DNA of 56,906 nt from Actinoallomurus purpureus (GTDB lineage: Bacteria; Actinomycetota; Actinomycetes; Streptosporangiales; Streptosporangiaceae). The notes below the pieces were generated by a model. It saw only the letters and a program-made list of their open reading frames with translations, did not search any database and was not told the origin of the DNA. The stretch is from NCBI RefSeq assembly GCF_024055795.1, contig NZ_JAMXMY010000037.1, forward strand, positions 1 to 56,906. Reading direction: 5' to 3'. Below, in pieces: positions 8,601-29,521 of the stretch; position 1 is the first letter of the stretch, and every line of letters begins with the position of its first letter. The position numbers and the translations under genes were made by a program.

Positions 8601-11600
8601 AGGCAGGGACGATCGCGTTGTGCCACAGCCACAGGGCCGCCGCCGACAGCACCTTGAAGGCGACGACGATCGGCGCGATGACTGCGAACAGCACGATCGC
8701 GGCGAGCAGCCGCGCGGCGATCGAGATGAACGTGAACGCGGGCTTGATCGCGTTGTTCCACAGCCACAGCGCGGCCGTCCCGACGGCGCGGATCGCGATG
8801 CCGATGGCGGCCAGGATCGGGCGCAGCACGCCGATCACGAAGGTCAGCACGCCCACGACCAGCCGCAGCGCGGCGACCAGCACGACGCCGGCGACGCGCG
8901 CGACTGCGGCGATGATCCCGATGGCCAGCTTCAGGACGGGCAGCAGGGCGGTGACCAGCGTTGCCGCGAGCTGGGCGACCGGGGGGATCAGCGGGATGAA
9001 GGCGGTGTAGACCTGCAGCAGGATCGGCACCAGCGTGAACAGCGGCGGCAGGAGCTGGGCGATGGCGAGGACGATCTGCTGGATCGAGGGCATTGCGGTG
9101 ATCAGCGCCTGGACCAGGGACCCGTCGATCTGGGCTGCGAGTCCGGCGAACATGCTGATCAGCGGGGTCAAGATCGGTAGCAGTCCGGACACCAGGTGGG
9201 CGATCAGCTGGCCGAGGGGCGGCAGGATCGGGGTGATGGCGGGTAGGACCCGGGCGATCGCGCCGACCAGCAGGGCGACGACGGGCACCAGGGACGCGAC
9301 GGCCGGCTGCAGCCCGGACAGCAGCGCGGCGATCACCGGCTGCAGGGCGCGGATGACGACGCTGAGGATCGGGCCCAGGCCGAGCAGGATCGGCTGCAGC
9401 CCGTTGATCAGCTGGACCAGCAGCGGCGCGAGGGCGGCGACCAGCTGGGTCACGAGCGGGGCCAGGGCGCGGAAGATGGGGGCCAGGGCGGCGCCGAGCG
9501 CCCCGGCGACCTGCGCCAAGGCGTTGATCACGGGGGCGGCGACCTGCCCGACCGCGCCCAGCAGGGCGCGCAGGGCGGGCTCCAGGCCGGTCACGATCCG
9601 GCCGAGCCCGCCGATCAGCTGACCGATGATCGGCTGGAAGGCGGACAGGTTCTGGCCGAAGGCGGAGAACGCGGCGCTGGCGTGGACGATGCCGCCGAGC
9701 ACGATCGGCGCGAACGGGGCCGCGGCCTGGATGATCCCGGCGAGCCCGGTCGCGATGTTGCCGAGCGTGCTCCCGAGCGCGGCGACGGAGCCGTGCGCCA
9801 GCCCGCCGATGGTGGTCGCGAAGCTCTGCCAGAACGGGGAGCCCAGCGCCCTCTGCGCCGAGGACAGCAGTTCGTTCAGCGCGGAGGCGGTGCCGCGCAC
9901 TGCGGGGGTCAGCAGCGGGAACACCCCGCGCAGCAGGGTCAGGCCCCGGGTGAGGACCGGCAGGACGGCCGGCTCGAGGCTGGCCTGCCACGCCTGGTAG
10001 ACGCGGGAGAAGCCCTGCCATGCGGTCATGAGGTCCCGGGCGGCGGGGGACAGCTTCCCCATCGCCGTGGCGAGCGTGTTGTTCGCGGCGGCGCCCTGCA
10101 GGCTCGCGGCGATCATGGCGCGGCGGGCGGCGGCGACCTGGTCGGCGGCCTGCTGGTCCGCGCGCGCGACGTTCGCGCGGGCCTGGGCCAGCGCCCGCTC
10201 GGAGTTCTGGACCTGCAGGTTGGCCTGGGCGAGGCGCTGACGCGCCGCCACGACCTGGGAGGAGCCGTCGACGCCGGCCTTTGCGGCCGCGCGCTCGTCC
10301 TGCTGCAAACGGCGCAGCTGAAGCTGCTGCTCGCGTAGCTGCTGGACGGCCTGCCGGTAGTTCAGCTCGGCCTTCTTGGCGGCCAGGTCCGCGGCCCGCT
10401 GCTGGTTCTGGGCGGCCTTCAGCGCGGCCTGCGCTGCGGTCACACGTACCTGGGCAGCGGCCTTGTCCGCGTCGGAGGCACCCGGGGTGCCGGCGAGCTG
10501 CTGCTGCGCGGCCAGGGCGGCGTTCAGCTGCGTCTGGGCGGCCGAGACCTGGTTGGCCGCTACCGCCGCGGCGGTGGCCAGCTGCTGCATGGACAGCCGG
10601 GCGGCATCGACCTGCAGCGTGTCCTGCTCGACCGCCAGGCCCGCGTCGATGACCTGGTTGCGCAGGTCCTCCATCGTCCGGCGGGCCTCCAGCCGCGCCT
10701 GGGTCAGCTCCCGCTGGGCGTTCACGGCGGACTGCTGGGCCGCCGTCAGCTGCTGCTCGGCGTTGCGGACCTGGTCCAGTGCCTGCTGGTGTGCGTACGC
10801 CTCGTTGCGGATCGCTGCGGCGAGCTGCTGCCGTGCGCCGGCCTCGGTGAGGGCACGCTGCTGCGCCTGCACGCCTGCGGCGGCGGACTGTTGGGCAGCT
10901 TGGGTCTGGGCCTGCAGGGCGTCCTTGATCCGGACGATGGCCGGCATCGCGACCGCACCGAACCCCGCGAGCCCGACACCGGCGCCGGCCGCGCCGGCGG
11001 CGACCGCCGCCAGGCTCGCTCCGGCCGCGACACCCAGCGACGACAGCGCGGGGAATAGGACCGCGTACTTGGCCGCCAGCAGACCCAGGCTGGACAGCGC
11101 ACCGGTGACGTCGATGTTGATATGCGCGGTCCGGCCGTCGAGCTTCTTGACCTCCTCGTCGGTCGCGGCCAGCTCCGCGTCGGCGCCGGCCGTGTCCGCA
11201 TCGACCTGGACGTTGGCGTGCGCGGCGGTGACCTTGTCGACCTCGGCCTGCACGGCGTCCAGCTGCGCGATGGCCGCCGCGGTGTCGGCCTGCACGTGGA
11301 TGGAGGCGTTGTGACTGACGGCCTCGAGCTCGCGTTTGATCGCGGCGAGCTCAGCGATCGCCTCCCCGGCATCGACGTCGACGCCGATGGTCTTCTTGGA
11401 GAGCTCCTCCATGCGGGCGCGCAGCTCGGCGACCGTACGGTCGGCCTCGGAGGAGTCGGCGGTGATCTCGGCCTTGGGCAGGGATTTGAACGCCGCCGTC
11501 AGGCGCCGCTTGAACCCGGCGGCGAACGCGCCCCCGATCTCCTCCCCGTCACGGGGCGCCTTGGGCTGCTGCTTCCGCTTCGACTCCTCCAGCGGGTCCT

Positions 11601-11781
11601 TGAGCGGGTCGCCCAGGCCCTGCCCGATGCTGTCGCGCAGCTGCCGGCCGATGTCCTCGCCGATCTTCGCGACGATCGGGCCCAGAGCCTTGTTCAGCTC
11701 CGTCTGGATCGTCTTGTGGAAGCCGGTGAGGTCGGGCCGGATGGGGATGTAGGCGGTGCCTGCTTGGGCGGGCATACTCAC
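5611..11781 (-). CDS. Tail tape measure protein with intein, NlpC/P60- or CHAP-like peptidase and lytic transglycosylase domains
   Basis: A 2056-residue precursor, 1726 after intein removal. Order: helical N-terminus; Ala/Gln-rich coiled coil (about residues 280-560); a long hydrophobic stretch with membrane-like segments (about 640-1130); repeated 'FTWLWHN'-type Trp units (about 1080-1240); and a cysteine-peptidase domain split at GQPAEQW|CADFIDWL by an intein. The downstream part has PGDIVFYSG and IGHVGIAVSG, carrying the catalytic His. Last is a soluble lytic transglycosylase-like domain (NRESGW...SSGAYGIPQ...WGLNYI). The protein sets tail length and probably opens the peptidoglycan during DNA entry. 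Start is a GTG at 11781 or the ATG two codons later. Confidence 0.93.
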   Translation of the reverse strand: MSMPAQAGTAYIPIRPDLTGFHKTIQTELNKALGPIVAKIGEDIGRQLRDSIGQGLGDPLKDPLEESKRKQQPKAPRDGEEIGGAFAAGFKRRLTAAFKSLPKAEITADSSEADRTVAELRARMEELSKKTIGVDVDAGEAIAELAAIKRELEAVSHNASIHVQADTAAAIAQLDAVQAEVDKVTAAHANVQVDADTAGADAELAATDEEVKKLDGRTAHINIDVTGALSSLGLLAAKYAVLFPALSSLGVAAGASLAAVAAGAAGAGVGLAGFGAVAMPAIVRIKDALQAQTQAAQQSAAAGVQAQQRALTEAGARQQLAAAIRNEAYAHQQALDQVRNAEQQLTAAQQSAVNAQRELTQARLEARRTMEDLRNQVIDAGLAVEQDTLQVDAARLSMQQLATAAAVAANQVSAAQTQLNAALAAQQQLAGTPGASDADKAAAQVRVTAAQAALKAAQNQQRAADLAAKKAELNYRQAVQQLREQQLQLRRLQQDERAAAKAGVDGSSQVVAARQRLAQANLQVQNSERALAQARANVARADQQAADQVAAARRAMIAASLQGAAANNTLATAMGKLSPAARDLMTAWQGFSRVYQAWQASLEPAVLPVLTRGLTLLRGVFPLLTPAVRGTASALNELLSSAQRALGSPFWQSFATTIGGLAHGSVAALGSTLGNIATGLAGIIQAAAPFAPIVLGGIVHASAAFSAFGQNLSAFQPIIGQLIGGLGRIVTGLEPALRALLGAVGQVAAPVINALAQVAGALGAALAPIFRALAPLVTQLVAALAPLLVQLINGLQPILLGLGPILSVVIRALQPVIAALLSGLQPAVASLVPVVALLVGAIARVLPAITPILPPLGQLIAHLVSGLLPILTPLISMFAGLAAQIDGSLVQALITAMPSIQQIVLAIAQLLPPLFTLVPILLQVYTAFIPLIPPVAQLAATLVTALLPVLKLAIGIIAAVARVAGVVLVAALRLVVGVLTFVIGVLRPILAAIGIAIRAVGTAALWLWNNAIKPAFTFISIAARLLAAIVLFAVIAPIVVAFKVLSAAALWLWHNAIVPAFNGMRLLIAAWWVVFIRPIFNAIRAAVRAIGSAFTWLWHNVAVPAWRGIQAIILTQWRAIKTVFAAIVGFLRDTLGPIFRWLWHNVVSPVWNGIKSAISTVWETGIRPVFNAVKTALGQVGHAFEVAASAIRIAWNKVKGYASAPIHFVVETVYNQGIVGMWNKVMGWLHLEKTVGTLTPYHVPGLASGGELSAAQPIRPMVTNGPMAIVGEGRPQFPEYVIPTDPRYRARAQGLWAAAGGDLQMLAQGGIIGGILNGVKKAASSIFNLGKDALGLLANPKGVFDKLAAPILGQAKGLGTSDWGKAAAAIPPKLIGEVWTAAKQIIETFKSSFGGGAGAQAMVALARGQVGYREGANNSNKYSAGIGQPAEQWCFAAGTLVDTPNGLRPIEEIQPGSTVLTPSGRAARTSALLTRRKELLQLTALGVPDTLVTEDHPYWAMRRTTPAKHKRRLDGPTWTPAGELKRGDMIALPIPAEGRDPFDPALAYVFGMYLADGHRLHRDTAHGVQFSDEACERERILAALKAAGNGDVRVTENRTCLHFTVYDDDLYDLCGQFGDLAHGKQIPGEVFTWDRAAREALLDGYLAGDGSFDEANGFRATTVSRALAIGLGKLVRSLGHVPNIHVAHDAGEMTIEGRQVSVRKAYLVKWKPGPIRRRQHFEQDGYLWVPVRSVSRTGRLETVYDLTVPGEHAFVADGAAVHNCADFIDWLAQQTGNSKIIPKTPSAPGMAQGFGSRFEAGSSGVMPGDIVFYSGQSNGWGGIGHVGIAVSGGNPWQSVEGNYGDRVALVTRSSAQGHAHPAYPVGAGPGGSLIHASSSAAQAWAQQALMGYGWGTAGQYSALIRLWNRESGWRWNATNPSSGAYGIPQSLPASKMASAGSDWRDNAATQMRWGLNYIRGRYGSPAAAWSHEVSSGWYDDGGWLQPGLNLAYNATRKPEPVFSPTQWADISSLTRGGDGASHVHYEIYPQRANFSVQDLQALQRRQEAQARVGRPR
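6493..7482 (-). other. Intein (330 aa) in the tape measure peptidase domain, with LAGLIDADG endonuclease
   Basis: The element starts at Cys (CFAAGTLVDTPNG, block A) and ends AVHN, followed by extein Cys; this is a standard class 1 layout. Block B is TEDHPYW. Two LAGLIDADG motifs are visible (VFGMYLADGH and LLDGYLAGDGS), then block F (VYDLTVPGEHAFV). The insertion lies between Trp and Cys of EQW|CADF, so the +1 splicing nucleophile is also the predicted catalytic Cys of the peptidase. The endonuclease motifs keep their Asp residues and look intact. Confidence 0.93.
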
Positions 11782-13192: not shown

Positions 13193-13846
13193 TCAGAAGC
13201 CCATCTGGGTCTTGAGCGCGGCCCAGCCCTGCCCGCCGTACAGGTCGCGGGAGCTGTAGCCGAGCGTGCTGTCGATGTAGGCGGTGAGGGTCACGCCGAA
13301 GGTGAGCGGGTCGTCGGCCTTGCTCTGGAACTTCTGGTCGTCGTAGTCGGTGACCCGCACCCTGGGAAGGAACCGGGCGATGTACAGCTCGCCGGCGTCG
13401 GTCAGGTCCACGCCGAGGATCAGGCACCGGTAGTGCTGGAACGCCGGCCGCGCGGGCTTGGCGATGTCCACCTCGCTGGTGGTGGCGTCCGCGGTGATGC
13501 CGGTCATGTCGGCGCCGGAGTACAGGCCGATCGTGGCCCGCTTGGTCTCCTGGCAGATGATTTTGACGGTGGTGGTGTCCTTGGTGATGTCCGAGCGGGT
13601 GGGCTCGACGGCACCGAAGGAGGTGGCGTTGGCGGTGTCGACCGACCGGGCGAACACCGCGCCGGAGTCGTCGATCCAGCCGACGTCCTCATAACCGACC
13701 GGCAGCGCCCTGAGGAGCTTGTCGGTGTCGGTGAGCGTGGTAATCGCGGACGCGGTGATCGGCGCGAGGAACACGCTGCCGTCGATCGTCCGGCGGATCA
13801 GCTCGTTCTGCTTGTTCTGGAGCGTGTCAAAGGCCACTCCGGCCAT
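13193..13846 (-). CDS. Major tail tube protein
   Basis: A 217-residue protein with the length, position and pattern of actinophage tail tube proteins: an N-terminal arm (MAGVAFDTLQNKQNELIRRTIDGSVFLAP), a central beta core with TTVKIICQETKRATIGLYSG, and a C-terminal strand region (VRVTDYDDQKF...LTFGVTLTAYID). It polymerises into hexamer rings forming the tail tube. It follows the connector genes and precedes the chaperones, the canonical siphovirus order. Confidence 0.85.
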   Translation of the reverse strand: MAGVAFDTLQNKQNELIRRTIDGSVFLAPITASAITTLTDTDKLLRALPVGYEDVGWIDDSGAVFARSVDTANATSFGAVEPTRSDITKDTTTVKIICQETKRATIGLYSGADMTGITADATTSEVDIAKPARPAFQHYRCLILGVDLTDAGELYIARFLPRVRVTDYDDQKFQSKADDPLTFGVTLTAYIDSTLGYSSRDLYGGQGWAALKTQMGF

Positions 13847-16100: not shown

Positions 16101-17414
16101 TCAGGAACCGTGCTCGACGATGACGCCGCGCTTGTACAGCGCCGCGTCGCCGGTCTGCAGGTCCGACGGGACGCCGTAGTCGCCCACCCACGCCCACGTG
16201 GTGGACAGGACCTGCTGGAGGCGGTCCTGCGGCGGACGGACGATCCGGGCGACCTCCACGCCGGGCGCGGCGGTGACCATCGAGATGTCCGGGACGGACT
16301 CCACACCGGTGCCGGCCAGGAGCGTGCCCATGTTCTCGAACGGCGCGGCGACCAGGACCCCGCCGCCGACCACGATGGGCCGGTGCACGGTGACGTTGCC
16401 ACCGGAGCCGCCGAGCAGCGTCGGCACCTCGTTGTTGCGGACCCAGTCGATCCCGCCGAACCGGCCGATGGACAGGTCGGTGTAGACGGGGGAGTCGACG
16501 CGGCCCTGCAGCGCCTGCTTGAAGTCGCTGTCGTCGAACAGCATCGCCTCGGTGTCGGGGTCGATGTGCGCGACGTAGTAGCCGCCAATCGTCGGCACGT
16601 TCATCTTCCGCAGCCGCGCGACCGCCGCCCGGAAGAGCTTGAACGTGGCGACGTCGGAGGATGCGAGGTCGTACGCGGAGTTCTTGCTCGTGCCCGGGCG
16701 CACGGAGAACGGCGCGTTCGCCGACAGCACGTAGTCACCGGCGACGTCGACGCGGGCGGTGCCGAGGGTGAGCGTCTTCGTGCTGGTGTTGACGCCGGTG
16801 ACGGTGTTCGCGACGCCGGCGATGGTGACGTTGAGCGGGTTCGCGCCGGACACCGGCGTGGGGACGCCGTTGACCATGACGGTCTCGAAGCCGTCGGTGG
16901 ACTGCACGACGATGCTCGTGTCGGAGCTGCCCGCGGTGGTGCACCAGGTCCTCCCGCCCGCGTAGGCCTTGTACAGCTTGGTCCGGGCGATCTGGTTCAG
17001 GGACTGGCCGGCGTTGATGCCCAGCGTGCCGACGTCGGCGAGGTATTTGCTGGCCAGCGCCATCGAGGACTGCAGCATGTTGGTGTCGACGGCCTGGCCG
17101 TACTGGTCCATCGTGACGGACCACTGCTCGAGGCCGTACGAGGCGGCGGAGGCGTCCGAGCCGGTGATCGGGGTGGTGGCCGGGGCGAGCAGGCCCTTGC
17201 GGGTGAAGGTCTTGGTGTCGCCCATGTTCGCCTGCCACGGCTCGCTGTCGGCGACGGCCGGGAAGATGAACTCGGGGATCAGGGCGTCCTGGAAAACCCG
17301 GTCGAGGATGCCGCTCTGCATCATGTTCCGGATCTGCGGCGGCACGGTGGACCGCACGTCGTGGCGGTCGAGCCGGAACCACGGCCTGCGCGTCCCGACG
17401 GTGAGCGTCGTCAT
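16101..17414 (-). CDS. Major capsid protein
   Basis: A 437-residue protein after scaffold and Prp-like genes. It has a basic N-terminus, then IRNMMQSGILDRVFQDALIPEFIFP, an MGDTKTFTRKG hairpin, and later GGYYVAHIDPDTEAMLFDDSDFKQALQ, IDWVRNNEVPTL and GDYGVPSDLQ. The pattern recalls the N4-gp56/P22-type coat families more than classical HK97 gp5. No N-terminal delta domain is fused; scaffolding is a separate gene. Assignment by length, gene order and pattern. Confidence 0.85.
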   Translation of the reverse strand: MTTLTVGTRRPWFRLDRHDVRSTVPPQIRNMMQSGILDRVFQDALIPEFIFPAVADSEPWQANMGDTKTFTRKGLLAPATTPITGSDASAASYGLEQWSVTMDQYGQAVDTNMLQSSMALASKYLADVGTLGINAGQSLNQIARTKLYKAYAGGRTWCTTAGSSDTSIVVQSTDGFETVMVNGVPTPVSGANPLNVTIAGVANTVTGVNTSTKTLTLGTARVDVAGDYVLSANAPFSVRPGTSKNSAYDLASSDVATFKLFRAAVARLRKMNVPTIGGYYVAHIDPDTEAMLFDDSDFKQALQGRVDSPVYTDLSIGRFGGIDWVRNNEVPTLLGGSGGNVTVHRPIVVGGGVLVAAPFENMGTLLAGTGVESVPDISMVTAAPGVEVARIVRPPQDRLQQVLSTTWAWVGDYGVPSDLQTGDAALYKRGVIVEHGS

Positions 17415-18458: not shown

Positions 18459-19451
18459 CTACGTGATGTAGCCGAAGCGCTGAAGCTGGCGGACGATCTC
18501 GGCGCGGTCCCAGCCGAGACGGTCCGCTTCGGCGTAGATCTGCTCGGGCATCAGCCGCGGAGCTCGCGCACGCCGGTACCGGGACCCGGGCTGCTTCTCC
18601 AGGTCACCCAGGCGGCGTCCGGCAATGCCGCGGGCGGTGGTGCCCTCGGTCGTGTAGACGATCCGGCGGCCGCCCGGCCCGGCCGCCGTGGCGACCCCGC
18701 GGCGGGCGTTGACGACCTGGCCGATGTCGGCGCCGTCCCGGATCGCCCGCGCGCCGGCCTTCCCGAACGCCTTGCGCTGCTCGGCCTCGCTCATCGACGC
18801 GAACAGGTCCTCGGGGGTGTTGTCGACGTTGGCGTTCCGCCACTCCTCATGGGTGACGGGCAACATCAGGCAATCGCACCGCGGATGCCGAAGGAACCCG
18901 GTTGAGTGGGAGTACAGCCGCCCGGCGAGGATGACGCACCGGCCGCACGCGGGCAGGTTCACGAACCTCTCGTAGCCCGCGATCGCGCCGTCGTTGACCA
19001 TCCCGATTCCGGTGGCGACCCGGCCGGCGTCCGCGACCTGGGTCGCGACGATCGTGATCAGGTTGTCCATGCCGCTGTGCAGGGCCCGGTCGACGTCGAC
19101 GCCGCCCTGCAGGTCCTCGAACACCCCGATGAGCGGGGTCTCCAGCAGCGATTCCAGATCCCGGCCGTCGGAGGCGATACCGGCGAGGGCCTGCGGGACG
19201 ACGCGCCCGGTCGTCTGCGGCACCGTGCCGGACACGCGGACGATCCGCTCGACGTAGCCCGCTCCGTGCTGGGCGGCGGTGTACTGGGTGCCGGTGAGCG
19301 CCCGCAGCAGGCCCTGCAGCAGGTCTCGCCAGGAGTCGGAGATGGAGTGGCGGTCGATGCGCCGCCACTGGGACTGGGCGATGACCGCGGTCTGACGGAC
19401 GAGGGCCTGCTGCTCGGTGTACTGCTGGCGGGCGAGCTGGTCGGTGGGCAC
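18459..19451 (-). CDS. MuF-like minor capsid protein
   Basis: A 330-residue protein next to the portal gene. The central segment NLPACGRCVILAGRLYSHSTGFLRHPRCDCLMLPV carries the Cys/His set (CxxC ... H-x-x-C-D-C) of the SPP1 gp7/MuF family, a portal-associated head protein. The N-terminal half is helical. The C-terminus (ARGIAGRRLGDLEKQPGSRYRRAR...YAEADRLGWDRAEIVRQLQRFGYI) is a basic tail with a short helical domain. No toxin domain is visible after MuF, unlike many polymorphic versions. Confidence 0.82.
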   Translation of the reverse strand: MPTDQLARQQYTEQQALVRQTAVIAQSQWRRIDRHSISDSWRDLLQGLLRALTGTQYTAAQHGAGYVERIVRVSGTVPQTTGRVVPQALAGIASDGRDLESLLETPLIGVFEDLQGGVDVDRALHSGMDNLITIVATQVADAGRVATGIGMVNDGAIAGYERFVNLPACGRCVILAGRLYSHSTGFLRHPRCDCLMLPVTHEEWRNANVDNTPEDLFASMSEAEQRKAFGKAGARAIRDGADIGQVVNARRGVATAAGPGGRRIVYTTEGTTARGIAGRRLGDLEKQPGSRYRRARAPRLMPEQIYAEADRLGWDRAEIVRQLQRFGYIT

Positions 19452-20852
19452 CTACGCCGCCGGCGGGGGTCCGGCCGCCGCATCCTCGGGCGGGACCGGG
19501 CCGGGGACAGGTGGTGGCTTGGGCGGCAGGAGGCGGTTCATCGGGTCCGCTGCCTGGTCGGCTTCTTCCATCAGCGCGATCTGCGTCTCCGAATAGCCGA
19601 GGTCCTCGCGGGTCTGCCGGAGCGGCACGATCCCGGCCTGGAACCGCTTCACGGCCGCGTCAGCGGACTGGGCTTCGGTCGGGGTCGCCGCGGACCGCCA
19701 AACGGTCTCCAGCCGCCGGGCGTCCGGGTTCCATTCACCGTCGCGGATCCGCAGTGCGAGGCGCTGGACCTGCTCCCAGCTGCCACCGAAGGTGCGCTGG
19801 CGGCGCTCGGCGCGTTTGATCAGGCGGATCTCTGAGGAGCGGATCGCATCGGCGCTCGCGGGGTTGTCGGTGGTCATGCCGAGGAAGTGCGGCGGCAGGC
19901 CCGACAGCGAGGCGACCAGCTTGGCGAGGGCGTTGATCGTCTCGTGGAAGTTGTTCAGCGACGCTTCGGGGAACTGAACGACGTCCGCGCCGTCCGGGCC
20001 GCCCCGGGACTTCATGGTCGCCCAGACCCGGCCGACCACCCGGGAGAACGCCGAGACGGGGTTGCCGTCGATGTCGGTGAAGTCCTCCTCGGAGAACCCG
20101 AACGCGACCCTCCTGGGGACGGCGTGGTACTCGGCGGACACCATCATGTCGGTGGCGATCTTGCAGGCGGCGTCCGACAGCGGGATCACGTCGGCGAGCT
20201 CGGAGACACCGCCGCGGTTACGGGTGCGGGGCCGGTTCACCAGCGGGACGACCGGCACGACACCGAGGTTGTGGTCGTCCCGGTCGACCTCGACCCACTG
20301 GCCCTTCTCCTTCTGGAAGGTGACCCGGGTATCGGGCAGGTAGAGGTTCGCGAACTCGGTCTTAGTGGTGCCTTCCTCCACGCACCACCGTTTGATCGCG
20401 GCCGCGACCTTGCGGGTACGCGGGTCGTATTCGACGTGCACCTCGAGCGGGGACTCAACGGTGATGAGGGGGATTTCCTCGTCGTCTTCGTTCGAGCCGG
20501 CGATAGCGAACGAGCGCTTCATGACCAGCGCGTCGAGGTGTCCGAGCTGGGATTCCTCGTCCAGGTCGTTGGCCTGCCAGATCTCCCACAGCCCTGGGTC
20601 GGCCTTGGCCTTGCCCGGGAAGCGAAAGCCCTCGACGTCGAGGCGCTCCTCGACGGAGTCGACGATCAACCGGGGCCAGTTGATGACGACCTGCCGGATC
20701 CGGTTGTCCATCTCCGCGAGCAGTTCCGGCGCCATGTACGAGAGCAGCTGCGTGCCCTCGTAGTAGGCGTCCAGGTTGAGCAGGGGCTGTTTCTGCTGGT
20801 CGTGCTGGGAGATGAGGTAGGTCAGCCACTCCTGTTCCGAGCGATCCACCAC
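19452..20852 (-). CDS. Portal protein (SPP1 gp6-like)
   Basis: A 466-residue protein directly downstream of large terminase, start GTG at 20852. Family features: N-terminal helices with YYEGTQLLSYMAPELL, the core RQVVINWPRLIVDSVEERLDVEGFRFPG, PLITVESPLEVHVEYDP, VPVVPLVNRPRTRNRGGVSELADVIPLSDAACKIATDMM, and a crown with Pro-rich tail (LPPKPPPVPGPVPPEDAAAGPPPAA). It forms the dodecameric DNA channel. Order terminase, portal, MuF, scaffold, capsid is canonical. Confidence 0.92.
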   Translation of the reverse strand: MVDRSEQEWLTYLISQHDQQKQPLLNLDAYYEGTQLLSYMAPELLAEMDNRIRQVVINWPRLIVDSVEERLDVEGFRFPGKAKADPGLWEIWQANDLDEESQLGHLDALVMKRSFAIAGSNEDDEEIPLITVESPLEVHVEYDPRTRKVAAAIKRWCVEEGTTKTEFANLYLPDTRVTFQKEKGQWVEVDRDDHNLGVVPVVPLVNRPRTRNRGGVSELADVIPLSDAACKIATDMMVSAEYHAVPRRVAFGFSEEDFTDIDGNPVSAFSRVVGRVWATMKSRGGPDGADVVQFPEASLNNFHETINALAKLVASLSGLPPHFLGMTTDNPASADAIRSSEIRLIKRAERRQRTFGGSWEQVQRLALRIRDGEWNPDARRLETVWRSAATPTEAQSADAAVKRFQAGIVPLRQTREDLGYSETQIALMEEADQAADPMNRLLPPKPPPVPGPVPPEDAAAGPPPAA

Positions 20853-20865
20853 ACCCCACCCCCGC

Positions 20866-23484
20866 TCACCTGAGGATCAGCATCCGGCTGGACTTCTTCG
20901 GGCGGGCCAGGCCAGCCGCGATGACGTCGCCGGCGGCCTGGTGGGCGAGGATCGAGCACACCGTGAGGTCGATCTTCTGGGACTGGCTGGCCTTGGCCAG
21001 CACGTACTTGTTGCCGGGGCGGCGGGCCTTGCGGGTGTTCCCGACGTGGGTGGCGGTCGTTTCGCACCCGTCGTGGGTGAAGGCGGAGTCGGCCTTGGTG
21101 ACGTCGGTCAGCAGCCGCTCGGCCGCGTCGTACATCTGCGCGGCCCGGCGGGTGTACCAGCGGATGACGACCTTCTCGCCGTACTGCTCCGCCCAGCCGT
21201 CGACCTCGGTCTCCCACTCCGGCGGGTCCGCGTACAGCCGGACCACGTCGTAGCGGGCCATCAGGTCATCGACCGCGGCCGCGACCTCCAGGCGCGGGAC
21301 CTGGCCGCCGTAGTCCGCCGGGTTCCAGATCGTCGGCAGCCGGTCGGGGCCGAACGTGGGCGTGAACTGGAAGCCGTCGAGGGTCTCGGCGCGGATCCCG
21401 GTCCAGTCGTCGGAATCGGAACCGTCGAAGCCGAGCACGATGCGCGTGCCGTCCGCGACTTTGCGGGCGGTCTTGGCGGCCCGGCCGTTCCACGTCGCCG
21501 CATCAAGCCAGGTGCCGATGCCCGAGACCATCCGGTTGCCGAAGAACCGTTCGGCCTGCCCCGGGTCCTTCTCCAGCAGCTCGGCGGCCTCGGCCTCGAT
21601 GGCGTCCAGGTCGACGTGCGCCGAGCCGCGATACACGTACTTGTGGATCTTCCGGCGCTCGGACTTGATGTGGTACCGCAGTGAAGCCGGGGCCTGCTGC
21701 CAGAACCGGAAAATGTCCGGGCGCTTGGACTCCAGCGTCCGCTGGGCGACCGACCCTTCCGAGGGGTCCGGGGCGTTGGTGGTCTCCATGCTCCGGCCGC
21801 CCATGCCGGCCGCGCCACGCCGCTGCGTCTCAGCGACCCGGATCATCTTGTTCGTGGCGGTGTACAGGCCGGTCTCGTCCTGCAGCGCGAAGATGATCGG
21901 GTTGCCCAGCCGGGACTGCGCCGAGGAGGTGACGACGTCGACCTTGCCGTCGCTCGGCAGCCGGATGAACCCCTCACCGACCCGCATCATCGAGGCGAGC
22001 GGCCCGTGCTTGGCCATCGCCTGCAGCGGCCGGTACACGTTCCCGACCTGGTCCTCCGACGTCGCCAGCAGCTGGATCAGCGGCGTCGGCCAGTGCGTGG
22101 CCATCGGATCGCCGGGCTCGTACTCCCAGACCCAGCCGCAATCACAACCGTGGTCGCGGCAATCCCAGACCTCGCCGCCCTTGGCCCAGCCGGCGAACAC
22201 CGCCGGGCCAACCGCCTCGTTGCAGATGATCGTCGCCGACCACGGGCCCTTGCCGGTGTTGCAGGTCGGGATCATCTCCCGGCCAGCGAGGAACACGTGC
22301 GAAGGCGCCTCGACGGTGAGGCACTGGGTCGGCACGGTGGCGATCTGCTCGACTGCGATGACGCGGCGGTGCCGGTACTGCGCGTGCCCGCGGCCAGGCG
22401 GCTTGAGCCGCTGCTGCTTGCGGGGCAGGTGGAACACCGGCATGTCCGAGCGTGCCGCGAAGTCGATCCGCCACTTCGGGCCGGTCGCCCGCCCGTTGAG
22501 CCGGGCGATGCCTTCGTGGACCAGGTGGCGGATGCCCAGGGAGTACAGCAGTTCCCGTACGCCGTCCCGGAGCGCTGGCAGCGTCGTGGTGAACTCGCAT
22601 TTGCCCTGGCGGACGTCCGCGTACCCGTCGGTGTCCATCAGGCCCTGCAGGAGCGCCCACCGCTGCTTCTCCGATGCGCGCAGGTACGCCACGGGGATGT
22701 GCTTGTTCCGCAGCAGCCCGGCCTTACGCAGCAGCGGCTTCAGATCCATGATCTGACGGCGCTTCGGAACCGACGTGCGCCGTACCTCATGGCCGGCCGC
22801 CTCGATCCGCGCGAAGATCTCCTCGTCCAGGCCGGTGATCCGGGCGTCGTCGGAGTGCCCGTCGCCCAGCCACGCGCCCAGTACGTACGGATCGATCGGC
22901 AGGTCGACGTCGGGCAGCCGCAGCGGCTCGGCGTTCGGCACCCGGTACCGGCGCGCGCCGTGTCCGTCGACGAGGTTCGCGGCCATCTCCGTGGTCGTCA
23001 CCCGATCCGGGACGTACGTGCCGCTCGGGGTCCGCCGCTCTACCCACCACTGGTGGTCCCCGCACGCGACCAGAGACGCGCCGTCGGAGAACGTCACCCG
23101 GTAGGTGTCCGACAGCCACACCGGTGACTTCGAGATGGCCCGGGTCGGTTCGCCCCGCTCGTCAAAGACGTCGTCGCCCGGCCGGACCTCGCCCATCGTC
23201 GTCCACCCGGTCGGCGTCGCGATCGGGGTGTCCAACGCGAGCGCCTTCTGCGGAGCGATGATCTGGCTGCGGCGGTAGTGGAACGCCGTCGCGAGCTGCC
23301 CGACGGTCGCGGTGGGCTTGACCCGGTAGTGGTTGACGGTGCACCACAGCTGCCAGTCGTACATCTCGAACGGCCTGCCCTTGTCCCAGCCGTCCGGGAC
23401 GATGCAGTGCTGCTCAACCCAGTCGGCGACGAGGAAGCCGAGCGTCGGCCACGAGACGACCCACTCAGGTCCCGGTGTCGCCAT
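20866..23484 (-). CDS. Terminase large subunit with intein
   Basis: An 872-residue precursor; spliced length is about 543. Host protein features: an N-terminal DGWDKGRPFEMYDWQLWCTVNHYR region, and a P-loop reconstituted as APQK|TGKGPWSA once the intein at residues 81-409 is removed. Further on are Walker B IIFALQDETGLY, the 'ETTNAPDPSEGS' segment, and a RNase-H-like nuclease domain beginning VLGFDGSDSDDW. It packages DNA through the portal and cuts it. It overlaps the small terminase gene by about 20 bp. Splicing should be needed for ATPase activity because the intein interrupts Walker A. Confidence 0.93.
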   Translation of the reverse strand: MATPGPEWVVSWPTLGFLVADWVEQHCIVPDGWDKGRPFEMYDWQLWCTVNHYRVKPTATVGQLATAFHYRRSQIIAPQKALALDTPIATPTGWTTMGEVRPGDDVFDERGEPTRAISKSPVWLSDTYRVTFSDGASLVACGDHQWWVERRTPSGTYVPDRVTTTEMAANLVDGHGARRYRVPNAEPLRLPDVDLPIDPYVLGAWLGDGHSDDARITGLDEEIFARIEAAGHEVRRTSVPKRRQIMDLKPLLRKAGLLRNKHIPVAYLRASEKQRWALLQGLMDTDGYADVRQGKCEFTTTLPALRDGVRELLYSLGIRHLVHEGIARLNGRATGPKWRIDFAARSDMPVFHLPRKQQRLKPPGRGHAQYRHRRVIAVEQIATVPTQCLTVEAPSHVFLAGREMIPTCNTGKGPWSATIICNEAVGPAVFAGWAKGGEVWDCRDHGCDCGWVWEYEPGDPMATHWPTPLIQLLATSEDQVGNVYRPLQAMAKHGPLASMMRVGEGFIRLPSDGKVDVVTSSAQSRLGNPIIFALQDETGLYTATNKMIRVAETQRRGAAGMGGRSMETTNAPDPSEGSVAQRTLESKRPDIFRFWQQAPASLRYHIKSERRKIHKYVYRGSAHVDLDAIEAEAAELLEKDPGQAERFFGNRMVSGIGTWLDAATWNGRAAKTARKVADGTRIVLGFDGSDSDDWTGIRAETLDGFQFTPTFGPDRLPTIWNPADYGGQVPRLEVAAAVDDLMARYDVVRLYADPPEWETEVDGWAEQYGEKVVIRWYTRRAAQMYDAAERLLTDVTKADSAFTHDGCETTATHVGNTRKARRPGNKYVLAKASQSQKIDLTVCSILAHQAAGDVIAAGLARPKKSSRMLILR
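22258..23244 (-). other. Intein (329 aa) in terminase P-loop, class 3-like, with LAGLIDADG endonuclease
   Basis: It starts ALALDTPIATPTGWTTMGEV and ends MIPTCN before extein Thr. The first residue is Ala, so the normal N-terminal nucleophile is absent. Block B has GDHQWW (Trp), block F has TQCLTVE (Cys in the Asp position), and the +1 residue is Thr. This is the Trp-Cys-Thr set that defines class 3 inteins, first described in mycobacteriophage proteins. Two LAGLIDADG motifs (VLGAWLGDGH, LLQGLMDTDGY) are intact. The boundary at Lys/Ala is inferred from the need to rebuild the P-loop. Confidence 0.88.
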
Positions 23485-25513: not shown

Positions 25514-26800
25514 TCAGCCGTAGTAGCGCAGGACATCGCCGATCGTCGCGACGGGCATCCCGGCCGTGTTGATCTTGTCGATGATGGCGTTGAAGTCGGA
25601 CTGTGCGCATTCCAGGGTCGAACCGACCGACCCGGTGACGATCTTGTGGAAGACCAGGATGAGCCACCCGCTGCTGGCCTTGACCTTGTCGATCGTGCCG
25701 GTGCTCGCCGTGGTGAGGCTGGAAGGTGTGACACCGCCGGCGAACGTGCTGATGGAGGAGATCGCCCGCAGCCGGAACGGGTCGGCCGGCGGGAACGTCT
25801 CGGCGGTACGGCGAGCGGTCGTCCTGGCCCAGGAGAAGTACCGGCGGGTGATGTCGACGGTGCTGACGTTGTCGCTTGTCCGGCCGAACTGCCCGAGCGG
25901 GTAGGCCGTCCCATCACCGATGCGGACGCCGTTGCTGATCAGCCAGGCGCGCTGTGCGCGGATGTCGCCTTCGAGCTGGGCCGCGGTCATCCCGGTGTAG
26001 GTCGCGGCGTGGTTGGCGTCGAGTTGGGCGTGAGCTGCGGATTCCCAGCCGAACCGGTCGACGCGGGTTTTGAGGTCGGTGAGGGTGATGTGGTTCGCGG
26101 AGCCGAGCTGGTCGGTGATGGTGAACAGCGACGCGGGGTAGCCGTAGCTGTCGAGCTTGGACCAGGCCAGGTCGCGGGGGCTGCTCCAAGAGTCGTCGAA
26201 GCAGATGGACGCGACACCGGACGGGAAGACCGCGGAGCCATCTGAGATCAGCTCGACGGACTGCAGGTGCACCGTGACGGGGTTGCCGGTGCCGTCGTCC
26301 CAGGCCTGCAGCTGAAGGTCGGTCATGCCCGAGCGGGCCGGCGTGCCGGTCGTGGTGGCGTCCGCGAAGTTGAGGGTGACGGTCACCCAGTCGCCGCTCG
26401 TGATCCACGCGGAGCCGCCGCCGATGAAGAAGCTCCACTTGTAGGTGTTGGCCAGCGAAGACGAGCCGCAGTAGAAGTCCAGCTCATTCAGATGGGTCGC
26501 GTCGTCGACCTTGATGCGGAGGCGGAAGATTTTCCCGGTCGTGTCCGGGACGCTTCCGGCGAACTTGCGGATGTTCGTCTGGGCGGCGGTGCCAGCGGTG
26601 GTCAGCTTCGCGGCCTGGGACCCGCTGATGGAGTCGCTGGTGTCGTTGAGGTTGAACGTCGCGCCCGTGCCCGAGCTGGTCCAGCCGTGCCCGGACTGCA
26701 TCGTCGTGGCGACGCTCGAGGCCTGCGGGAACCGCGGTAGCCGGGCGGTGCCGGGGAACAGCGCCGACCGGTCTGGTGGGGCGAAGTTCCGGGAGGTCAT
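25514..26800 (-). CDS. Tail-associated polysaccharide deacetylase (NodB-like)
   Basis: A 428-residue protein, ATG at 26800. It has an 11-residue shared docking leader (MTSRNFAPPDR), then a beta-sandwich carbohydrate-binding-like domain (about 30-190). The C-terminal NodB-like domain has FDDSW (201-205), YGYPASLFTITDQLG, the second motif region GWESAAHAQL (252-260), YPLGQFG (the Pro-rich RxPxG-like stretch), and LIVLVFHKIV near the end. NodB enzymes remove N- or O-acetyl groups from surface glycans with a metal ion. Glu stands where the first metal-binding His is expected. It is probably a virion enzyme acting on the host envelope. Confidence 0.78.
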   Translation of the reverse strand: MTSRNFAPPDRSALFPGTARLPRFPQASSVATTMQSGHGWTSSGTGATFNLNDTSDSISGSQAAKLTTAGTAAQTNIRKFAGSVPDTTGKIFRLRIKVDDATHLNELDFYCGSSSLANTYKWSFFIGGGSAWITSGDWVTVTLNFADATTTGTPARSGMTDLQLQAWDDGTGNPVTVHLQSVELISDGSAVFPSGVASICFDDSWSSPRDLAWSKLDSYGYPASLFTITDQLGSANHITLTDLKTRVDRFGWESAAHAQLDANHAATYTGMTAAQLEGDIRAQRAWLISNGVRIGDGTAYPLGQFGRTSDNVSTVDITRRYFSWARTTARRTAETFPPADPFRLRAISSISTFAGGVTPSSLTTASTGTIDKVKASSGWLILVFHKIVTGSVGSTLECAQSDFNAIIDKINTAGMPVATIGDVLRYYG

Positions 26801-27078
26801 CGCAGGACGCCGACCGAGACGCGTGGGGTGCCGGTCGAGATGAGTTTCACGGTCGTCGGGGCGGTGCCGGTGCCGGGCGGGCGCAGTTCGATGGAGCCGA
26901 CGGCGGCGGGCAGTAGCCAGGAGCCGTTTCCGCCGACTGCGGGGGTGGATCCGTCGACGGTGGCCCAGACCTCGGCGGCGCCGTCGACGTTGAGGATCTC
27001 GATCAGGTCGGCGTCGACGTCGAAGGTGAGCGTCGTAGGGGTGTTCGCGACGAGTGTTGCGTGCTGCGGGTTGGCCAT
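26797..27078 (-). CDS. Small beta-rich structural protein (93 aa)
   Basis: A 93-residue protein, MANPQHATLVANTPTTLTFDVDADLIEILNVDGAAEVWATVDGSTPAVGG..., ending with an ATGA overlap onto the deacetylase gene. Alternating strands and the 'NVDGAAEVWATVDGSTP' phrase recur in small fibre or decoration proteins of Streptomyces phages. No enzyme motif. Likely a virion component of the same adsorption set. Confidence 0.7.
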   Translation of the reverse strand: MANPQHATLVANTPTTLTFDVDADLIEILNVDGAAEVWATVDGSTPAVGGNGSWLLPAAVGSIELRPPGTGTAPTTVKLISTGTPRVSVGVLR

Positions 27079-27113
27079 CTCGACACCTCCCGGGTGTGGT
27101 GGTTCGGGGTCGG

Positions 27114-27401
27114 TCAGGCGGCGTCACAGAGATGGCGTACGGCGCGGGTGGTGGTGCCGGCTGTGCGGGCCGCGTTCATGCGGGCTTGGTATTCGGCCTC
27201 GATGACGTCTTCGAGGGCGTACAGCGGCTGGCGGGGTGGGGTGCCGGGGACTCGTGTGAGTCGGCCGCGAGCTTCCCAGGTGCTGATGGTGGCGGGTTTG
27301 ACGCCGGCGGCGCGGGCCGCGTTGGCCCGGTCGACGTATTCGCGGCCGTCGGGACCGTGGTGGATCTGGATGTCCAGGGCGTGTTCACCTCCCCCGGACA
27401 T
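27114..27401 (-). CDS. Helix-turn-helix (MerR/AlpA-like) DNA-binding protein
   Basis: A 95-residue protein. I choose the ATG at 27401 because the alternative at 27440 lies inside a strong hairpin. Residues about 22-65 (EYVDRANAARAAGVKPATISTWEARGRLTRVPGTPPRQPLYALEDV) are a winged HTH of the MerR/excisionase type, with 'GVKPATISTWEARGRL' as recognition helix and 'YALEDV' wing. It lies just downstream of the Ro gene behind a hairpin that may insulate it. Likely a small regulator; target unknown. Confidence 0.75.
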   Translation of the reverse strand: MSGGGEHALDIQIHHGPDGREYVDRANAARAAGVKPATISTWEARGRLTRVPGTPPRQPLYALEDVIEAEYQARMNAARTAGTTTRAVRHLCDAA

Positions 27402-27521: not shown

Positions 27522-29198
27522 TCAGGGAGTCTTCTGCTTCCACGGCCAGGTGGCGTTCCGCCCGGCTTCCAGGAGCGGGATGAGCCCGAACGCCCGGTCG
27601 GTGAGCCCGCCGAAGGTGTGCCGCTGTCCGTGGCCGGACGGGCCGTGACCGTGCTGGTAGCCCGCGAGGTTCCAGGTGTAGACCGGGACGTTGTCCGGGA
27701 CCTGGCCGGTCGGGTTGGCACCGTGGTAGCCGCCCCACGCCTGCTCGTCGGTGACGATGACGACCCGGTCGTGACCGCGATAGTTCGCCCGTACGGCCTC
27801 GGCGGTGTTCGTGCCGCCCATCGAGCCGAACTCCTTCAGCGCGGTCAGGACCGAGCTTCCGGCCTGCAGGCGGATCGGGCGGTGGCTGGTGCCGAACTCC
27901 ACCAGGTCGGCGGACGCCGCACGCAGAGCGAGCGCCGTGCCGAAGATGGCCGCCGAGTCGGCGCGGTTCAGCCCGGACCGCTCGGAGATCGGACCGAACA
28001 TCGAGCCGGACCGGTCGACGAGGATGAGCGTGCGGCCCGGCAGCGCGGGGACGTTCGCCAGCGAGGCGTTCAGTGCCTTCTCCAGCGCCCAGGCCCAGCG
28101 CAGCGACGGGGCCGCGTTGTAGGCCGCGAGGAACCGGAACGGGAACTGCCGAGACTTGGCGACCTGCTCGGGGTCGGCGATCCGCGCGGCGATCTGCTCG
28201 GCGACCTCGTCGGAGACGCCGGCCTGGTCGAAGTTCCGCAGGTTCCGCAGCAGGGCCATGTACCCCATGGAGGGGATGAGCGCCTCCCATACCTTGGCGT
28301 CGAGCGGGCCCTGCAGCCATCCGGCGACCGACTCCCAGCTCATCCCGGCGTCCTTCAGGACGAACGCGGCCTGGCTGCGGTCGAACAGCGCGCGGCGCTC
28401 CTCGACCGGCCAGGACATCAGCTCGGCGTGGTTGCCGATGGTGATGAGTGTCTCGGGGATCGGATTGTCACGGCCGTGTCGACGGTCGAGGGCGTGCTTG
28501 AACAGGTCACCCTGCCAGGCACCCCAGGCCTCGGCGTGGCTGCCGGCCGTCGGGTGGACGAGGTCGACGACGTCGCCGAATCGGAAGCCCTTGGAGTCGG
28601 TGTCGTACTTCAGCAGTGCCCGCTCGTTGTAGAGCCGGGCGACCGCGTCGGCGACACCGCGCTTGACCGGCTTGGGAATGTTCCGGCCGTACTTGGAGGT
28701 CCAGTAGGCGAGCATCTCGCCGGGCTCGTCGGCGCGTTGGAGGACCGAGTCGACGACGCGGCGGTTCGCCGAGGCGTGGTAGGCGAGGTTGTCGCCGCCG
28801 AACGTGACGGCGGCCTGCTCCGCGCCGGCCTCGTGCGGGCGCCGCGGCCGGGTGCCCGCGGCGGCGAGGCGGGCGTGGACGTATTCGGCGGCGCCGACGA
28901 TCGCTGCGGATCGCATGTTGGCGTCGGTCCGGAGCCATGCGAGCAGGGCGGCGGTCCAGTCGGGGTCGGCGACGGCGAGCTGGCGGACGAGGGTGACGTA
29001 CCGGTCGTCGCGCTGCTTGGCGCGCTCGTAGAAGGTGTCTTCGCCGACCATGTTGGCGATGGCCAGGAGGAAGAGCTCGGACTTGGCGTCGCGGGCGTGG
29101 CCGGGCGCGCCTTCGTGGGTGCGGCCGGTCGGGGTGGTCTCGCTGCGTACCGGGCTGAAGATTGCCGGGCGGGTGCCGCGCTGGTTGAACTTGGACAC
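27522..29198 (-). CDS. rsr: Ro60/TROVE domain protein (Rsr)
   Basis: A 558-residue ring-forming RNA-binding protein of the Ro60 family. It has an N-terminal TROVE HEAT-repeat domain (about residues 1-370, with ARDAKSELFLLAIANMVGEDTFYERAKQRD and LPRTL-like helices). A C-terminal von Willebrand A domain has an intact MIDAS: DRSGSM (395-400), GGTNT (461-465) and TDE (484). Ro60 binds Y RNAs and misfolded RNA, and in bacteria tethers PNPase or joins stress RNA processing. Start is a GTG at 29198; the frame is open upstream but runs through an RNA gene. Its SD lies within the terminator-like hairpin of the upstream Y RNA. Confidence 0.92.
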   Translation of the reverse strand: MSKFNQRGTRPAIFSPVRSETTPTGRTHEGAPGHARDAKSELFLLAIANMVGEDTFYERAKQRDDRYVTLVRQLAVADPDWTAALLAWLRTDANMRSAAIVGAAEYVHARLAAAGTRPRRPHEAGAEQAAVTFGGDNLAYHASANRRVVDSVLQRADEPGEMLAYWTSKYGRNIPKPVKRGVADAVARLYNERALLKYDTDSKGFRFGDVVDLVHPTAGSHAEAWGAWQGDLFKHALDRRHGRDNPIPETLITIGNHAELMSWPVEERRALFDRSQAAFVLKDAGMSWESVAGWLQGPLDAKVWEALIPSMGYMALLRNLRNFDQAGVSDEVAEQIAARIADPEQVAKSRQFPFRFLAAYNAAPSLRWAWALEKALNASLANVPALPGRTLILVDRSGSMFGPISERSGLNRADSAAIFGTALALRAASADLVEFGTSHRPIRLQAGSSVLTALKEFGSMGGTNTAEAVRANYRGHDRVVIVTDEQAWGGYHGANPTGQVPDNVPVYTWNLAGYQHGHGPSGHGQRHTFGGLTDRAFGLIPLLEAGRNATWPWKQKTP

Positions 29199-29199
29199 G

Positions 29200-29231
29200 A
29201 AAAAGGTCTCCTTCCGCACCGGGAGGAGACC
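29200..29231 (-). terminator. Intrinsic terminator of the Y RNA overlapping the Ro ribosome binding site
   Basis: On the minus strand GGTCTCCT (29231-29224) pairs with AGGAGACC (29212-29205), an 8-bp stem with an 11-base loop, followed directly by TTTTT (29204-29200) and then the GTG of the Ro gene. The right arm contains AAGGAG, the only good Shine-Dalgarno for that gene. It begins four bases after the closing stem of the Y RNA. Confidence 0.8.
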
Positions 29232-29234
29232 CCT

Positions 29235-29394
29235 CTTCATCGCCTGGTGCCCGAGATCGAGTCGACGGAGGTGACGTTGGCGCTCTGCCGTTGAGCTACA
29301 CCGGCCGTGAGGCCGGTGGCAGGACTCGAACCTGCACACACCCCATTAACAGTGGAAGTAACCCCTGTCTGCGCACCGGGCACCAGCGATGAAG
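29235..29394 (-). ncRNA. yrlA: Y RNA (YrlA-like) with circularly permuted tRNA-mimic domain
   Basis: The 160-nt RNA is closed by a perfect 18-bp stem, interrupted by one bulged G at 29244: CTTCATCGC/GCGATGAAG plus TGGTGCCCG/CGGGCACCA (29394-29377 with 29253-29235). Inside, 5' to 3', come a T arm (GCAGG-TTCGAGT-CCTGC, 29335-29319), an acceptor-like 7-bp stem CACCGGC/GCCGGTG capped by a 6-nt loop (29318-29299), TA as positions 8-9, and a D arm (GCTC-AACGGCA-GAGC, 29296-29282). The T half precedes the D half, so the order is that of a tRNA opened at the anticodon and closed at the acceptor. A bulged closing stem is the Ro60-binding form in Y RNAs. It sits immediately upstream of the Ro gene. Confidence 0.87.
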
Positions 29395-29471
29395 TTGTGT
29401 GTCCTCCCGAGATCAGTGACGGCGCCGGTGGGTTTCTGTTCGAGAGAAGTAACCGGAGCCTTCGCACCGGG
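29355..29471 (-). repeat. Two copies of CCCGGTGCG-N8-GGTTACTTC
   Basis: On the minus strand the 9-mers CCCGGTGCG and GGTTACTTC occur twice in the same order with exactly 8 bases between them: 29471-29446 and 29380-29355, 91 bases apart. A third CCCGGTGCG lies in the terminator loop (29223-29215). The second copy is inside the Y RNA between its closing stem and T arm; the first lies upstream. Function unknown. Confidence 0.8.
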
Positions 29472-29521
29472 AGGTGCTGATGACGATCGTACGCAGAGGA
29501 GGCCGTTCCGCGCTTCGATTT

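Follow-up and report, generated by a model that had tools for sequence, protein, structure and literature searches.

In the permuted tRNA genes of red algae and archaea, the 3' half of the tRNA precedes the 5' half; these genes leave room for the CCA end and are processed to tRNAs. A permuted tRNA-like order is also found in the bacterial Y RNA YrlA (RF02553; PDB 6CU1, Salmonella), which is encoded near Ro60 and combines a terminal stem with a T arm, a capped acceptor stem, TA and a D arm. ARTEMIS superposes the Y RNA of 6CU1 on tRNAs with a circular permutation (PMC11472068), and where a review likens the YrlA domain to the D, T and acceptor arms, an anticodon arm is not mentioned (PMC8394870). 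In the Rfam YrlA alignment, the three bases that open the matched part pair with the three bases after the D arm and, thus, the Ro stem continues in place of an anticodon stem. Here, we describe a Ro60-linked Y RNA from a phage genome that appears to keep an anticodon arm. The permutation is already known (Rfam YrlA; PMC11472068), and the kept arm appears to be new compared to described bacterial Y RNAs: the titles and abstract openings that we surveyed, a scope outside which the core YrlA papers lie, report no anticodon arm in a Y RNA, and an earlier mention in Chen 2014, Wang 2018, Sim and Wolin 2018 or Sim 2020 is unlikely, though by no means negligibly so.

The window, i.e. the whole stretch of DNA analysed, is one entire contig of 56,906 bases (70% GC) from a genome of 9.25 Mb that is spread over 52 contigs. 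Its gene content is that of a tailed phage (Table 1), and the window portal has its nearest counterpart in the phage collection in Streptomyces phage Kromp (65.7% identity). An exact terminal repeat was looked for in the contig and not found, so that the contig may stem from an integrated prophage, an episome or virions in the sample. The phage genome also encodes an FtsK/SpoIIIE-like protein (phrog_31069; 49442-51625, minus strand) and a protein that weakly matches a polysaccharide deacetylase (NCBIfam PIA_icaB, E 7e-4; 25514-27127, minus strand). The Ro60-like gene passes the curated Pfam TROVE cut-off (73.9 bits vs 23) and matches phrog_850 "RNA-binding protein" with 182.6 bits; with 40.5 vs 900 bits, it lies below the cut-off of the NCBIfam RNA-bind_Rsr equivalog. 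It is the only TROVE gene in the source genome. TROVE was found in none of seven other genomes of the same genus and in 9 of the 41 genomes of a sample of relatives that includes the source genome.

An earlier note on this DNA had proposed that a phage carries a permuted Y RNA that resembles a tRNA and is linked to Ro60, and this proposal is supported. The parts that it named, i.e. the closing stem, T arm, acceptor-like stem, TA and D arm, are all present, on the minus strand. Absent from that description were the strand, an anticodon arm and variable loop (together 29336-29357), a second Y RNA, and a hairpin followed by a T run. The closing stem of Y RNA 1 has 18 bp and one bulged G, and the acceptor-like hairpin has seven pairs, or eight counting the next one, with TCAC as the cap. 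By eye, an inner helix with 7/8 pairs can be drawn between the outer stem and the head, while the optimum fold pairs its 5' strand otherwise. The folding energy of the 166-nt minus strand lies 5.2 SD below that of 200 dinucleotide shuffles, and no shuffle reaches its stability. Because the candidate arm UUCCA-CUGUUAA-UGGGG and a 5-nt variable loop lie just 5' of the T arm, all parts of a tRNA are present, and the break in tRNA numbering falls between positions 26 and 27. Y RNA 1 is, thus, very probably a complete, circularly permuted tRNA mimic with the Ro stem as a handle at the 26/27 break.

Table 1. Features of the Y RNA/Ro60 locus and of the surrounding phage genome.
Feature	Position	Strand	Basis or remark
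Y RNA 1 (permuted, anticodon-arm-bearing, "type B")	29235-29394	minus	fold, YrlA alignment, own model R1
Outer (Ro-binding type) stem, 5' strand	29377-29394	minus	fold
Outer stem, 3' strand, bulged G included	29235-29253	minus	fold
GGTGCGCAG motif	29369-29377	minus	recurs in other Y RNAs of surveyed loci
GACTCGATCTC motif	29253-29263	minus	opposite GGTGCGCAG
Inner helix, 5' strand (GACAGGGG)	29362-29369	minus	by eye
Inner helix, 3' strand (CCTCCGTC)	29264-29271	minus	by eye
Putative anticodon arm UUCCA-CUGUUAA-UGGGG	29341-29357	minus	comparative; energy folding does not favour
Putative anticodon GUU (Asn type)	29348-29350	minus	
Variable loop UGUGU, 5 nt	29336-29340	minus	last base U48 matches A15
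T arm GCAGG-TTCGAGT-CCTGC	29319-29335	minus	
Acceptor stem, 3' strand	29312-29318	minus	
Acceptor stem, 5' strand	29299-29305	minus	short cap to 3' strand, no CCA
U8 A9 (TA)	29297-29298	minus	
D arm GCTC-AACGGCA-GAGC	29282-29296	minus	
Position 26 = G	29281	minus	
Y RNA 2	29403-29474	minus	short; same stem motifs and GGTTACTTC; no T, acceptor or D arm
Terminator-like hairpin GGTCTCCT-CCCGGTGCGGA-AGGAGACC and TTTTT	29200-29231	minus	by eye
Ro60 (TROVE) gene, open	27522-29198	minus	probable GTG start at 29196-29198; Y RNA 1 upstream
Terminase	20866-23484		
Portal	19452-20852		
Head protease	18459-19451		
Major head protein	16101-17414		
Major tail protein	13193-13846		
Tape measure	5611-11781		

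Because the Rfam YrlA model itself has the order T arm, capped acceptor, TA and D arm, the permutation belongs to the family as already known. Like YrlA, Y RNA 1 has an adjoining Ro60 ortholog, a long terminal stem and this order of parts. The covariance match is not the strong one hoped for in the earlier note: the YrlA model matches 29279-29342 (minus strand) at 32.2 bits (E 2.7e-5 for the 401 bases searched), and the gathering score is 69. At gathering thresholds, no Rfam family matches in the window, and none of 15 Ro60 loci with such RNAs (eight viral contigs and seven actinobacterial genomes) has a YrlA match at the cut-off. The two RNAs differ in that RF02553 has a helix between the bases preceding the variable loop and those following the D arm, whereas the window RNA would have a separate anticodon arm. 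Taken as a whole, the class of the window RNA does not have the Ro stem where the anticodon arm would be; for the window RNA itself, the energy model does not come down in favour of the arm.

The evidence for the arm is comparative. We surveyed 150 loci, a few of them cut by contig ends, comprising the window, 65 viral loci, 80 genome loci and three phage records identified by the Ro60 protein, and a record of Microbacterium phage SM23 identified through similarity to the RNA. The finder was keyed on the T arm, capped acceptor, T(A/G) and D arm, and ignored the segment before the T arm. It identified 125 permuted RNAs in 93 of the 150 loci, no strict matches in the remaining 57, and none on the reverse strand of the 150 loci; after removal of seven duplicate cores, 118 were distinct. 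A second entry for the window (L001) was left out. Perfect 5-bp stems in the ignored segment peak at a variable loop (V) of five and an anticodon loop of seven (43/118 RNAs, 15 stem kinds); V=4 and V=5 with a loop of seven together give 58. The second cell of the grid, V=3 with a loop of 12, holds 21 RNAs with five stem kinds, and 19 of these are the same RNAs in another register. In the cells that follow (V=4/7, 15; V=2/5, 14; V=1/7, 13; V=4/10, 12), the last three again hold mostly the same RNAs in another register (12/14, 12/13 and 11/12, with eight, six and two stem kinds, respectively). The two largest non-tRNA cells mostly reflect a constant UACUU or ACUUC opposite G-rich bases.

At least four of the five anticodon-stem pairs at V=4 or 5 are present in 81 of the 118 RNAs. 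The loop contents, which were outside this selection, include U33 in 78, A38 in 76 and a purine at 37 (R37) in 77 of the 81, and the five-base variable loops (n=62) have G45 in 57, G46 in 60, U47 in 58 and a pyrimidine at 48 in 61. Conversely, among 85 RNAs chosen by loop letters alone, 50 have a perfect stem vs 8.3 in shuffled sequences (maximum 16 in 2000). The tertiary pair 15:48, also outside the selection and with its halves in the two swapped segments, is G-C in 71, A-U in 39, A-C in one, G-U in none and otherwise combined in seven of the 118. Fisher P values are 3e-29 for 15:48 and 1e-11 for the 36/37 coupling described below, and overstate independence because related sequences are counted. 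Of the 56 perfect-stem RNAs, alignment A1 holds 54, omitting two, and alignment A2, which also omits the V=4 rows, holds 41; pair counts in A2 are partly circular in that stems were picked as paired, which does not apply to 15:48 (41/41). The two matches in L047, one of which resembles a real tRNA pair, were kept in the finder, loop-content, loop-letter-selection and grid-cell counts and left out of the tRNA-loop, linear-acceptor, folding, triplet-turnover and topology-class counts; with L047 there are 81 arm-bearing RNAs and 28 triplets, without it 79 and 26.

Within the stem, the strong signal lies at 30:40 and 31:39, which pair in 85 and 87% of RNAs vs 45 and 42% of shuffled ones; 27:43, 28:42 and 29:41 (82, 81 and 87% vs 67, 77 and 68%) rest largely on the constant UUC. 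Energy folding fails as proof of the arm, which has a median probability of 0.07 (0.12 in the window; above 0.5 in 14/79). The tRNA-like structure costs 2.6 kcal/mol over the optimum in the window and more than 5 in 17 of 79 RNAs. In the same energy model, which has no tertiary contacts, the median for the D arm is 0.35. Thus, the anticodon arm is well supported by sequence comparison and not by energy.

The low folding probability and the other registers available in the same RNAs would be expected if the RNA were a plain YrlA RNA in which the arm arises by chance or as one of several registers. According to the earlier note, the Ro-binding stem takes the place of the anticodon arm. For RNAs without a local arm this holds, since the YrlA-type long-range stem forms 4/4 pairs in 26 of 37 vs 5.2 in shuffled sequences (maximum 11). 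It does not hold for the class of the window RNA, which has its own hairpin at tRNA spacing and in which 4/4 long-range pairs occur in 11 of 79 RNAs vs 7.2 shuffled (maximum 14), although 52 more have 3/4. Together with the peak at tRNA spacing in 15 stem kinds and the selection by loop letters alone, this difference makes a chance hairpin very improbable. Both topologies occur together in 14 of 88 loci.

The locus might instead yield a working tRNA, either as a normal-order tRNA cut from it or as a spliced permuted pre-tRNA. In linear order, 29311-29387 weakly matches the Rfam tRNA model (22 bits vs a cut-off of 29, E 0.033), the window RNA has 7/7 linear acceptor pairs, ARAGORN makes 31 linear calls over finder matches in other loci, and phage records label several relatives as tRNAs. 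However, linear acceptor pairing over 79 RNAs is not above that of shuffled sequences (5.04 vs 5.21 pairs), and 7/7 pairs occur in two RNAs, one of them that of the window, vs 2.2 expected. Moreover, a short cap joins the acceptor strands and there is no CCA, in contrast to the red-algal and archaeal genes, and ARAGORN finds no tRNA in the window. We, therefore, rejected a normal-order tRNA gene, which the earlier note had named as an outcome that would speak against its reading, and consider a working tRNA from this locus extremely improbable.

Positions 34 and 35 rank among the columns that change most in the arm-bearing RNAs. Positions 34-36 hold 28 triplets among the 81 RNAs, the commonest being GUU and GCU (10 each) and CUU and CAU (seven each). 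Among RNA pairs at least 85% identical outside the triplet, 127 of 163 have different triplets. The mismatch is 0.43, 0.57 and 0.26 at 34, 35 and 36, compared to a mean of 0.10, 0.44 at column 44 and 0.43 at column 72; in the 73 columns compared, which exclude the D-loop middle and the acceptor cap, position 35 changes most, 34 is about third and 36 about twelfth. For instance, in an ortholog group of 13 RNAs (six Streptomyces genomes, six other genomes and one viral contig), CUCUUAA, CUCAUAA, CUGAUAA, CUGUUAA and other loops stand on similar flanks. Entropies at 34, 35 and 36 are 1.14, 1.76 and 0.39 bits in this group (mean 0.36).

This pattern bears on what the head does, for which the earlier note had tentatively proposed the recruitment of tRNA-modifying or RNA-degrading enzymes. 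The head could be an ordinary Y RNA adaptor that tethers Ro60 to an exonuclease such as PNPase, a known role of the Deinococcus Y RNA (PMC8394870, PMC7790460), with the hairpin completing the fold and the triplet drifting unread. A loop that is a U-turn for structural reasons only would be expected to vary freely at 34-36 while keeping U33 and A38, and in the ortholog group position 35 is fourth of 149 columns by entropy, with several other columns as variable as the triplet. The turnover of the triplet may, thus, be neutral. Two observations would be unexpected for an unread loop. Firstly, G36 is coupled to G37 (17/18, vs 6/63 for G37 otherwise); in tRNA calls, from which calls over Y RNAs have not been removed, G36 is followed by G37 in 136 of 272 cases in other loci and six of seven in host loci. 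Secondly, 58 of 79 loops (20 of 40 distinct ones) are identical to some real tRNA loop vs 48.4 with shuffled flanks (none of 5000 shuffles reaches the observed number) and 33.2 with random triplets. It also speaks against the adaptor that position 35 has the top rank in the column comparison above. We consider the adaptor somewhat unlikely.

The combinations at 36/37 are mostly U36-A37 (41/81) and G36-G37 (17/81). The t6A modification needs U36-A37, and TrmD needs G36-G37. These combinations would fit a head that recruits tRNA-modifying or -repair enzymes to Ro60 by a correct anticodon loop, with the particle editing or repairing tRNAs, and YrlA has been reported as a DusA and TruB substrate (PMC8394870). 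Yet no gene of this kind recurs beside Ro60 in the 80 genome loci, and we consider this recruitment improbable. More generally, in a neighbour survey of frames of at least 110 aa, in which some loci were cut by contig ends, no family except Ro60, and frames overlying it, occurs in more than 10 of the 80 loci, and thus the gene neighbourhood does not tie the RNA to a nuclease or to RtcB.

Based on these data, we suggest as a tentative model, which may well be correct although we stop short of calling it probable, that Y RNA 1 is a Ro60-linked, complete, permuted tRNA mimic that acts as a decoy or bait. In this model, Y RNA 1 would be transcribed and held on Ro60 by the Ro stem, and its head would fold as an L-shaped tRNA. 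Because the acceptor end is closed, the head would be neither chargeable nor usable in translation. The free anticodon loop, in which the triplet changes fast whereas U33, R37 and A38 are kept, would present a false substrate to enzymes acting on tRNA anticodon loops, above all host anticodon nucleases and possibly modifying enzymes, and would either absorb these enzymes or bring them and their products to the Ro60 particle.

The idea of a decoy comes from the whole-tRNA anatomy, the closed acceptor, the fast triplet, the location of Ro60 among tRNA genes in phages Alone3, Atuin, BRock and pSt2308, and two published leads. Phage tRNAs have been proposed to be adapted against anticodon nucleases; as described there, these are also phage RNAs with an anticodon loop under apparent selection, but they are ordinary, translational tRNAs, while the acceptor end of the window RNA is closed (PMC10264068). 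Hughes et al. suggested YrlA as a competitive inhibitor of an anticodon nuclease; against a decoy, Salmonella YrlA was not cut by the anticodon nuclease studied there (PMC7790460). Taken alone, the decoy or bait role is possible but doubtful. Extending it, we speculate that the Ro60 particles of actinobacteria and many phages carry fast-changing, uncharged, permuted tRNA mimics as anticodon-nuclease decoys or bait, and that such mimics form an RNA arm of the phage-bacterium conflict that is annotated as stray tRNA genes or missed; we hold this joint reading to be rather unlikely. If the model of Y RNA 1 is right, bacterial Y RNAs mimic tRNA more fully than can be seen in the YrlA structure, the anticodon loop is a handle on the purpose of the mimicry, interference of Y RNAs with anticodon nucleases is testable per RNA and per triplet, and some phage tRNA lists contain RNAs that are probably not tRNAs.

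Model R1, built from 41 RNAs including that of the window, matches the window core with 81.8 bits, the only strong match in the source genome; the next three of 39 matches there (50, 47 and 45 bits) coincide in position with neighbouring tRNA genes. Of 296 genomes of the class, 54 have R1 matches (E up to 1e-9) and 37 have TROVE; in 24 of the latter, R1 matches no more than 4 kb from TROVE. However, real tandem tRNA-Asn genes also match R1, with up to about 81 bits, so R1 alone is unfit for counting Y RNAs. Among the 74 matches listed for the 296 genomes, 46 have no TROVE within 4 kb; 15 of these were inspected. The 29 loci L318-L346 comprise 15 that are tandem tRNA genes by eye and 14 within 4 kb of TROVE, one of which (L330) has no finder match. 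As a source of the permuted look in Y RNA loci, tandem tRNA genes were rejected because their flanks are tRNA halves and not a Ro stem.

Pairs of close tandem tRNA-Asn(GUU) genes of one genus account for L325, L326, L328, L329, L331, L333, L335-L341, L344 and L346. Read from the first anticodon arm to the second D arm, such a tandem has the same permuted shape, which hints at a possible origin of permuted Y RNAs and makes these tandems prone to give false positives in searches.

Among 10 further phage records, a looser finder gave a permuted match in seven. An arm of at least 4/5 pairs is present in four of these, from Streptomyces phages BRock and pSt2308, Xanthomonas phage 10KY502B and Brevundimonas phage Gurke, and absent from those of Frankenweenie, CcrPW and RHph_Y65; Vibrio phage phiKT1024, Microcystis phage Mvi-JY20 and Gordonia phage Neville had no match with this finder. 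An annotated tRNA-Ser of Gurke contains TTCGA-CTGCTAA-TCGGG, and an annotated tRNA-Thr of 10KY502B, in permuted order by eye and missed by the finder due to a two-base cap, contains TTCGA-CTTGTAA-TCGAG. Similarly, R1 matches overlap annotated tRNA-Asn (SM23), tRNA-Ser(gct) (Alone3) and tRNA-Arg(tct) (VanLee). Permuted RNAs are overlapped by tRNA-Asn, -Ser, -Arg, -Thr and -Ser features at L002:3974-4040, L148:2265-2338, L150:2195-2266, L349:1801-1868 (by eye) and L350:1769-1843, respectively.

Permuted RNAs with an arm of at least four pairs also occur in L198, L227, L234 and L244, where the Ro60-like proteins are 25-28% identical to that of the window, and the class may, therefore, span more than one Ro60 lineage. 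A pattern scan of viral contigs gave at least 120 stretches; among the 127 matches listed, 109 lacked acceptor pairing, five were paired with CCA and 13 (12 loci) were paired without CCA. Permuted, CCA-less tRNA-like RNAs on viral contigs were seen in L174, L189, L210 and L215, in which tblastn with the window Ro60 found no relative.

Y RNA 2 belongs to a third, short kind with the same stem motifs and a TACTTC-like motif, of which we count 41 candidates of less than 100 bases. It resembles the short, YrlB-like bacterial Y RNAs in its stem motifs and in having no tRNA domain; it has no match to Rfam families. Its fold has a z of -2.2, with five of 200 shuffles as stable. The loop UUCU-CUCGAAC-AGAA looks like a bare anticodon loop with the rest of the tRNA absent, and a few other short RNAs show an anticodon-like loop by eye (e.g. 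CTGCAAA in L012).

Between Y RNA 1 and Ro60, the terminator-like hairpin has the likely Ro60 ribosome-binding site in its 3' arm and includes a further Ro-motif-like CCCGGTGCGGAAGG. Because it covers this site and carries CCCGGTGCGGAAGG, our guess is that it may be an attenuator or serve in self-regulation by Ro60. We rejected the idea that a hairpin with the Ro motif is conserved upstream of Ro60, the motif version being present in only 5 of 141 loci; other terminator-like hairpins are visible before Ro60 in the eight loci printed.
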